Source: Prevotella sp.
GTDB lineage: Bacteria > Bacteroidota > Bacteroidia > Bacteroidales > Bacteroidaceae
Direction of reading: 5' to 3'
DNA: 41,487 nucleotides
Assembly (NCBI GenBank): GCA_022783515.1
Contig: JALEWR010000097.1
Location: forward strand, 1 to 41,487
In this document: piece by piece, positions 18,433-20,155 of the stretch
Numbering within the stretch: the stretch's first letter is position 1
Layout of the letters: each line of letters opens with the position of its first letter
The notes under the pieces: model-generated
What the model saw: only the letters and a program-made list of their open reading frames with translations
The model's database searches: none
Told to the model about the DNA's origin: nothing
Program-made: the position numbers and the translations under genes

Positions 18433-18617
18433 ATGAACTAAAGTTATGACCAGCTACTCCTTATTGTACAACGGCTCGTTTCTAAGCAACTACACATAAA
18501 CAACAAAACCATGAATACGCCAGTTCGGGCTAAGAAACGTGGTTAAAAGATTCGCAAACATCGCAGTCGCGATGGCAAGATAAGGCAGAAGAAATTACCG
18601 TATAATAATGGAAGACT

Positions 18618-18848
18618 TGTTGTGAATTGTTGTGTGTGTCGTTGCTTACAAAACAATCCGTGGCTAACTCCTTCTGCGAGTTTTTTCATCACGACTGCGA
18701 TGTTTGCGTGTTCTTTCTACTCTGTTTGGTGTAATTTTTTCTGCGACTTCTGCGTTATCTGCGAGAGCTTTATCTAAGTTAATATTCCGAACTCGCGTAA
18801 TTAATACTTAAAATTTAAAAGCAACGACACACACAACTATTCACAACA
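18618..18848 (+). mobile_element. MITE-like element, copy 2 (intact, 231 bp, 30-bp TIRs)
   Basis: TGTTGTGAATTGTTGTGTGTGTCGTTGCTT (18618-18647) and reverse complement of 18819-18848 (TGTTGTGAATAGTTGTGTGTGTCGTTGCTT): 29/30 identical. No internal ORF. Shares internal blocks with 8202-8500. Confidence 0.75.
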
Positions 18849-19053
18849 TATCAACTAAACGACCAAACACTAACACTTAATCACTCATACTTAACTAAAA
18901 TCCACCTGATTGTTAAAATTCAAGCGTTCTCCTTGCGTTATTTTCCACGAAGATAGAGTTGGGAGAGAAATAAGCGAGTTTTGAGCGATTGTGCTATTTA
19001 TCTATCAATCAGCAATTTACAAAAGAGAGAAAACAAAAAAGCAAAAGATAGCG

Positions 19054-19207
19054 AGTAAAAGACATAGAATGAGGTTGCAAAAGACATGCTTTGGCAAGGT
19101 AAAAGGATAGCTTTCAGCCTCCAAAAGGATAGCTTTGGCAAGGCGAAAGCATAACTTTGGCACATGAAAAGACATAAAAGCACCCTGCAAAGGGCATTTT
19201 CTTGCCT
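19054..19207. repeat. Tandem array of seven 22-bp degenerate units
   Basis: AGTAAAAGACATAGAATGAGGT / TGCAAAAGACATGCTTTGGCAA / GGTAAAAGGATAGCTTTCAGCC / TCCAAAAGGATAGCTTTGGCAA / GGCGAAAGCATAACTTTGGCAC / ATGAAAAGACATAAAAGCACCC / TGCAAAGGGCATTTTCTTGCCT; no indels between units. Confidence 0.8.
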
Positions 19208-19502
19208 TTCAGGAGATAACAAACAAGATTTTCATCGCTATTTTATCGAAAAACGAAAGGAGTTGTATGAGATTCTTTTTAAGTTAAAACTGTTAATAAA
19301 AAGACAGATAAAAGAGAACAGAAAAGAAACTTGAAGCAGGCTTTTCCGAAAGACTTGATGGCGTCGGATGAAACAGAGCAGTCCTACGCTTCCTATTAGT
19401 CTGAGAGAAAAAAGCAGCCCATTCCCCTCCCGTCTTTCCTTCCCTCCCTCATCATCACTAAAAAAACGCCCGCCACACCCACATTTAAATAAAAACTTTT
19501 CG

Positions 19503-19561: not shown

Positions 19562-20155
19562 ATGGCAGCAACAAAACAAATCAAGACAGCACTTGTGTCG
19601 GTTTTTCATAAAGACGGACTCGAAGAATTGTTAGCAAAATTGCACGAAGAAGGCGTCACTTTTCTATCTACCGGCGGCACCCAGTCGTTCATCGAATCAT
19701 TGGGCTATGAATGTCAAAAGGTAGAAGATGTAACATCTTATCCTTCCATCTTAGGCGGACGCGTAAAGACCTTACACCCCAAAGTGTTTGGCGGCATCCT
19801 GGCTCGCAGAGAGCATGAGGGCGACCAACAGCAAATGGCAACATATGAAATCCCCGCAATCGATCTCGTCATCGTAGACCTCTATCCCTTTGAACAAACA
19901 GTGGCAAGCGGAGCTTCAGAGGCAGACATCATCGAGAAAATCGATATCGGCGGCATCTCGCTCATTCGTGCAGGAGCCAAAAACTTCAATGATGTGGTGA
20001 TTGTTCCCAGTAAGGCAGAATATGGTATGCTGCTCGACATTCTGAAAAAGAACGGAGCAAAAACCGAATTGGAAGAACGCCGTAACTTTGCCATGCGTGC
20101 CTTTGGTGTAAGTAGTCATTACGACACGGCCATCAACCAATGGTTCGCGAAATAA
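19562..20155 (+). CDS. purH: IMP cyclohydrolase (MGS-like domain of PurH only; no AICAR transformylase domain)
   Basis: IKTALVSVFHKDGLEELL, FLSTGGTQSFIESLG, SYPSILGGRVKTLHPKVFGGILARR, DLVIVDLYPFEQTVASG, IEKIDIGGISLIRAGAKN. ORF ends at 197 aa; full-length PurH is about 500 aa. Confidence 0.9.
   Translation: MAATKQIKTALVSVFHKDGLEELLAKLHEEGVTFLSTGGTQSFIESLGYECQKVEDVTSYPSILGGRVKTLHPKVFGGILARREHEGDQQQMATYEIPAIDLVIVDLYPFEQTVASGASEADIIEKIDIGGISLIRAGAKNFNDVVIVPSKAEYGMLLDILKKNGAKTELEERRNFAMRAFGVSSHYDTAINQWFAK

Follow-up and report, generated by a model that had tools for sequence, protein, structure and literature searches.

The array of seven 22 bp units at positions 19054-19207 of the window, the term used here for the whole 41,487 nt stretch of Prevotella sp. 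DNA that was analysed, is a member of a largely unrecognised repeat family that reaches hundreds of copies in certain Bacteroidales of the gut and mouth. These arrays are most plausibly regarded as cooperative binding sites for a predicted homodimeric, and probably architectural, protein, situated within elements that have also been multiplied; from comparison of the sequences, we assign this reading a probability of roughly one half. Little is known about how chromosomes are organised in Prevotella and Bacteroides, which are dominant in many communities of the gut, the rumen and the mouth. A rigid 22 bp repeat with tens to hundreds of copies in a genome, a design conserved across genera and a core that is not, offers a clear starting point for identifying the predicted protein that recognises it. 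Arrays are also found at rearrangement breakpoints that separate relatives, and at ends of contigs in the assembly from which the window derives.

A phased array of dyads upstream of purH

The sequence-only reading described seven consecutive 22-mers lacking any indel, and direct reading confirms this: across the 154 bp of 19054-19207, to which no strand is assigned, units start at 19054, 19076, 19098, 19120, 19142, 19164 and 19186 in exact register. When scored against AAAAG-N5-CTTTT, for which the maximum is ten matches, they have 6, 9, 9, 9, 8, 5 and 7 matches in order. The strong core, likewise unstranded, occupies 19076-19163 and consists of four complete dyads with the cores ACATG, GATAG, GATAG and CATAA, while the three outer units have degenerated or are half-sites. 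The same period, 22, emerged independently from Tandem Repeats Finder, at 19077-19162. The top four-unit score in the window was 35 at this period, compared with 23-26 at periods of 18-21 and 23-27; windows simulated under a first-order Markov model (n = 60) gave a mean of 23.6, a standard deviation of 1.1 and a maximum of 27. AAAAG/CTTTT was the best-performing half-site, with a core that is species-specific, such that the AAAG-N5-CTTT dyad originally proposed has held up, whereas the longer consensus given with it proved to be of local validity only. The view that the array is not a CRISPR was also sound, as it comprises 15 bp dyads and 7 bp linkers at a period of 22 bp, rather than conserved repeats separated by unique spacers.

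A sequence profile (A1, R1) was built from 21 arrays. R1 matched the window at 19076-19161 (E value of 1.9e-19) and at 537-619 (E value of 2e-9), both values being optimistic because the training set came partly from the window genome and included the array at 19054-19207 itself. The second match, together with an array parser, defines another array of the family at 537-639, again unstranded, which is more degenerate and consists of five units.

A dispersed family in the Bacteroidales

The genome-wide and cross-species search suggested by the sequence-only reading recovered phased arrays at other sites of the genome as well as in relatives. Twelve additional matches were obtained when the array was compared by BLAST with the genome of origin, and the R1 search of the 2.4 Mb draft identified around 38 distinct array sites. 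When an exact three-unit pattern was sought in one genome per GTDB species, at least 120 stretches matched; among the 80 matches listed with titles, all were from Bacteroidales (Prevotella, Bacteroides, Mediterranea, Marseilla, Leyella, Xylanibacter and others). Allowing up to three mismatches, the pattern was found at 608 positions in P. histicola, 411 in Marseilla, 406 in G100, 264 in G055, 146 in P. bivia and 70 in the window genome, counts that include overlapping units and for which a reversed-pattern control was near zero; it was found at no position in several complete genomes of the genus. R1 detected arrays in 33 of 60 genomes of the genus, the remaining 27 having none. As their distribution is patchy, and they are missing from several complete genomes, the system is dispensable.

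With two mismatches permitted, the three-unit pattern was present in 0/394 sampled Bacteroidota genomes from outside the order Bacteroidales, and only a single sampled Bacteroidales genome outside the window's family, G893, was matched. The same 22 bp architecture recurs with other cores, among them AAAAGTCTAACTTTTT, in G893 and at loci L032, L040 and L066 from UBA5515, UBA4893 and RGIG6215. These distinct-core arrays, at least one of which lies outside the window's family, could reflect either an independent origin or old inheritance. The only record matched in a plasmid collection was NC_022111.1, a 1.77 Mb replicon of Prevotella sp. oral taxon 299 filed as a plasmid, which has approximately seven arrays per 100 kb (L379, L380), degenerate and in most cases of four units. 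A blastn search of phage records found no match to the array. Eight contigs of the G000 assembly (C128, C78, C16, C25, C11, C113, C195 and C37) have arrays within a few hundred bases of their ends, which suggests that these repeats break assembly.

Conservation of spacing and symmetry

Among 1.68 Mb of fetched loci, 204 three-unit arrays had a loop of five and a period of 22, compared with 0-2 for other combinations except the 44 bp harmonic, although this count is partly circular, as many of the loci were fetched using the pattern itself. A generic palindrome scan that made no assumption of AAAG, and from which matches to the pattern were excluded, also peaked at 22, albeit on small numbers (three versus 0-2). 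Successive strong dyads were spaced by exactly 22 bp in 111/115, 83/85 and 240/261 cases, with most of the others being 44, and indels within arrays are very rare. Half-sites are 80-93% identical in G055, G100 and the window genome, as against 36-58% for linkers. Retention of the spacing while the sequence decays, first noted from the window alone, is genuine, and general across the family. In these three genomes, units resemble others of their own array barely more than they do those of different arrays; in G055, for instance, within- and between-array identities are.93 and.93 for the arms and.40 and.43 for the linkers. Recent slippage or local tandem copying is thereby excluded.

A4/T4 tracts lie 11 bp apart in 411 of approximately 472 steps, making intrinsic curvature likely. 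Arrays mostly comprise four to six units. Those of G055 usually have exactly four, with sharp conserved outer edges, and long flanks shared between them are not evident. At the G055 loci L259-L278, the central units 2 and 3 share core orientation in 92% of cases, relative to 47% expected, and units 1 and 4 are for the most part oriented towards one another. An apparent pairing of units 1 and 3 in the arrays of G100 was discarded, being 0.73 against 0.60 expected once the elements were in register.

Selection for a hairpin predicts covariation of paired positions within a genome, whereas a drifting site for a symmetric protein predicts covariation between species. No compensation between paired positions was detected within any genome (z <= 0.4), G-T mismatches being as common as A-C. 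Between species, N5 positions 1/5 and 2/4, as well as the flanking bases A1 and out1, covary symmetrically (z of 6-9). The first result argues against a hairpin, and the second is as expected for a site recognised by a putative symmetric protein.

Enclosing elements and genomic context

The arrays of the window genome are located centrally in elements of around 400 bp that have two families of ends. Sequence matches in the flanks, constant in their distance from the other arrays, delimit an element of approximately 386 bp around the main array (18911-19296, unstranded, end family II), consisting of a TGTTAAAATT end, the central array and a TTTTTAAGTTAAAACTGTTAA end. The latter, at 19276-19296 on the plus strand, is common to the flanks of L233, L238 and L243. 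Flank alignments also revealed a conserved module adjoining the array at 18968-19023 on the minus strand (TTTGTAAATTGCTGATTGATA ... CTCAAAACTCGCTTATTT), which is common to other arrays of the window genome and to those of G012. The second array lies in an element of around 417 bp with end family I, defined by flank comparison at 368-784 and also without an assigned strand, whose ends are in direct orientation: GTAGAAATTGACCAAT at 368-383 and AAATGACCAA at 775-784. The ends of 18911-19296 pair no better than shuffled sequences, and hence give no indication of the terminal inverted repeats that characterise MITEs. A third family is found in the ~380 bp elements of G012, which are 85% identical, and each array of G100 lies in a conserved block of ~189 bp. 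Since the ends and flanks differ between genomes while the array geometry stays the same, it is the array, and not the flank, that is the constant part.

A separate MITE-like element with nested inverted repeats (35 bp, 91%; 22 bp, 95%) is present at 18553-18848 of the window, pieces of which reappear near other arrays of the genome (L223, L228, L236, L218 and L229). When an unoccupied counterpart of the window locus was sought, the best relative among 300 genomes was only 83% identical over mreB. G017, a relative of G100 at ~91% identity, has arrays at loci orthologous to those of G100. The orthologous sites that were compared are filled in both genomes, with cores swapped between types, and differ in occupancy only by a contraction at one pair of arrays, the lengths of which differ by exactly 44 bp, or two units. 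Breaks in synteny between this pair of genomes were observed at arrays in L328 (9319), L329 (16080) and L322 (6167 and 12438), indicating recombination between dispersed copies. Such breaks are expected of any dispersed repeat, and no evidence was found for the replication or recombination site once envisaged.

Arrays are intergenic in 119/123 cases. They are modestly enriched in convergent relative to divergent gaps (odds ratio of 1.9, p value of 0.005), a signal driven mostly by one genome, G100, and those in tandem gaps are nearer the 3' end of the upstream gene, this context being based on a simple ORF caller. Clustering of 599 adjoining ORFs yielded no convincing recurrent neighbour or cognate gene family, the largest spanning six genomes. 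The special link to purH that the position of the array had prompted is unsupported, as the adjacent genes vary between arrays, purH being simply one of them. The purH ORF of the window (19562-20155), which is followed by mreB, encodes only 197 aa that match positions 3-194 of a 510 aa bifunctional model. The AICAR transformylase half seems to be missing through truncation, splitting of the gene or an assembly error.

A predicted binding platform and its alternatives

Cooperative or architectural binding by a predicted protein, as originally proposed, is still the best reading of a spacing that is preserved as the sequence decays. Each array would be one copy of a dispersed chromosomal binding platform, in which every 22 bp dyad AAAAG-N5-CTTTT is recognised by a homodimer through its pair of DNA-binding domains, with half-site centres about one helical turn apart. 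The two-turn unit repeat would then set four to six dimers on one face of the DNA, where they may bind cooperatively, and the phased A4/T4 tracts would probably give the DNA a curvature, with wrapping or bending on complex formation. These intergenic platforms, numbering from dozens to hundreds and mostly situated away from divergent promoters, may act in organising the chromosome or insulating it topologically, and not in the control of purH or of any other single gene. The element carrying the array has also been copied around the genome. It is the combination of the dyad, the two-turn period, the narrow range of unit number, the phased A-tracts and the symmetric drift that points to cooperative binding by a homodimer. 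Several observations weigh against such a platform: the distribution is patchy, enrichment between convergent genes is modest and comes mainly from one genome, and copies amplified as whole elements in some lineages, namely the P. intermedia group and G012, resemble a multiplying repeat.

A selfish non-autonomous repeat, of the MITE or REP type, is the main rival, although on balance a doubtful one: the dyads would be recognition sites for a transposase or recombinase and the element would have no host function, and an enzyme of this kind reading the dyad could also be the source of the symmetry across species. Sharp-ended whole elements have been amplified in G012, G100 and the window genome, copy number is high and distribution patchy, and there is a precedent for a tandem repeat trapped in a MITE (BrickBuilt; PMC4596501). 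Such an origin is difficult to reconcile with the absence of terminal inverted repeats, the lack of any gene family recurrently adjoining the arrays, ends that vary around a constant array geometry, and the arrays of G055, which lack shared long flanks. Furthermore, when the Y1 transposase of the RAYT type (PF01797) was searched for in 60 genomes of the genus, it was absent from the array-rich G000, G012, G055 and G062. Mobility of the element and recognition of the dyads by a host protein are nevertheless compatible, and the two readings do not exclude one another.

The other explanations are each much less probable. Phased A-tracts in AT-rich arms might matter as curved DNA alone, with the unit read by no specific protein, yet this is improbable given that the G and C flanking N5 are strongly conserved in most genomes, that N5 is species-specific and dyad-symmetric across species, and that Bacteroides arrays have the same geometry with AAA tracts only. 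No better placed is an RNA element, in which transcribed tandem hairpins would act as a terminator, an sRNA or a protector of mRNA ends. The units are palindromic, and arrays in tandem gaps lie towards gene 3' ends, but there is neither compensatory pairing within genomes nor an excess of G-U over A-C, the core in the window folds with a z of only -1.8, and an Rfam search gave no match to the arrays, returning only tRNAs and weak unrelated matches. The FopS sRNAs of Bacteroides, also considered, are unrelated to the arrays. An operator for purH or neighbouring genes would accord with the position of the array 355 bp upstream of the purH start; it is highly improbable when around 38 copies sit next to unrelated genes, with no recurrent neighbour family, and convergent contexts are common. 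Least probable of all is a neutral minisatellite arising from replication slippage. The 44 bp difference between orthologues is what slippage would produce, but the explanation is already inconsistent with the counts of the 22 bp geometry and with the comparison of units, same-array copies being no closer than those of different arrays, and unit number is narrow and the geometry single over many species.

A stronger form of the binding hypothesis is tentative, and seems to us rather unlikely: a dedicated, co-evolving chromosome-organising system of the Bacteroidales, with one predicted homodimer per genome recognising a species-specific dyad and forming nucleosome-like particles on tens to hundreds of arrays of 4-6 units. 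These would constitute distributed architectural sites unlike any described nucleoid system.

Comparison with known systems

A published account of one form of the family appears to exist. PINSR, reported in 2015 from P. intermedia, is a 188 bp intergenic repeat of 177-184 copies, with no inverted ends and of unknown function, which is located downstream of tnaA and was thought to be specific to the P. intermedia clade (PMC4755523). Like the array family, it is dispersed, intergenic and non-coding, and lacks terminal inverted repeats. An intergenic block of about this length and a copy 3' of tnaA (~235 bp downstream) were found in G100, to which alone this agreement applies. The genome of G100 is divided between two replicons (1.97 and 0.71 Mb), and 58 arrays were counted in the 400 kb sampled. 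From these agreements in block, replicons and tnaA, we infer that G100 belongs to the P. intermedia group, and PINSR almost certainly represents the 22 bp array family in P. intermedia. The sequence-only reading, which took the element as possibly undescribed, is thus correct only in part, the P. intermedia version having been published. The account of PINSR, as one 188 bp repeat of a single clade, makes no mention of an internal 22 bp dyad array in the text consulted (PMC4755523), and the literature search found PINSR in no other paper. The 386 bp element of the window differs from the G100 copies and PINSR in its flanks, its core and its four strong units. On this view PINSR becomes a single instance of a broad family.

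The BrickBuilt minisatellite of Porphyromonas gingivalis, a MITE with 1-23 copies of a 23 nt unit (AGAYCATARTATCCTCTCRTRTG) and IS5-like TIRs, resembles the arrays in being intergenic and multi-copy, with a short tandem unit between a leader and a tail (PMC4596501). Neither its unit nor its IS5-like TIRs (GAGACCTTTGCA) were found around any of 257 arrays. REP sequences and BIMEs, associated with RAYT transposases, are likewise high-copy, clustered intergenic palindromes of species-specific sequence, with BIMEs binding gyrase and IHF (PMC2817692, PMC3733652). The arrays are distinguished from them by the rigid 22 bp tandem period, the lack of RAYT and the lack of compensatory stem changes, there being no Watson-Crick excess in any genome. 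The GTAG and CGTC tetramers typical of REP occur in only 77 and 95 of 1045 units, on either strand.

Similar in dimensions are the iterons of plasmid R6K, seven 22 bp units of two helical turns each. These are direct repeats at one replication origin, whereas the arrays described here are dispersed dyads of mixed core orientation. For the predicted protein, an octamer of the Lrp/AsnC type, with four dimers wrapping four dyads, would by analogy be a concrete candidate. The operators of BarR, an octamer of this type, contain several 15 bp semi-palindromes, each occupied by a dimer, with the DNA wrapped on the octamer (PMC10201364). Such operators are single regulatory regions, in contrast to the dozens to hundreds of dispersed intergenic arrays found here.
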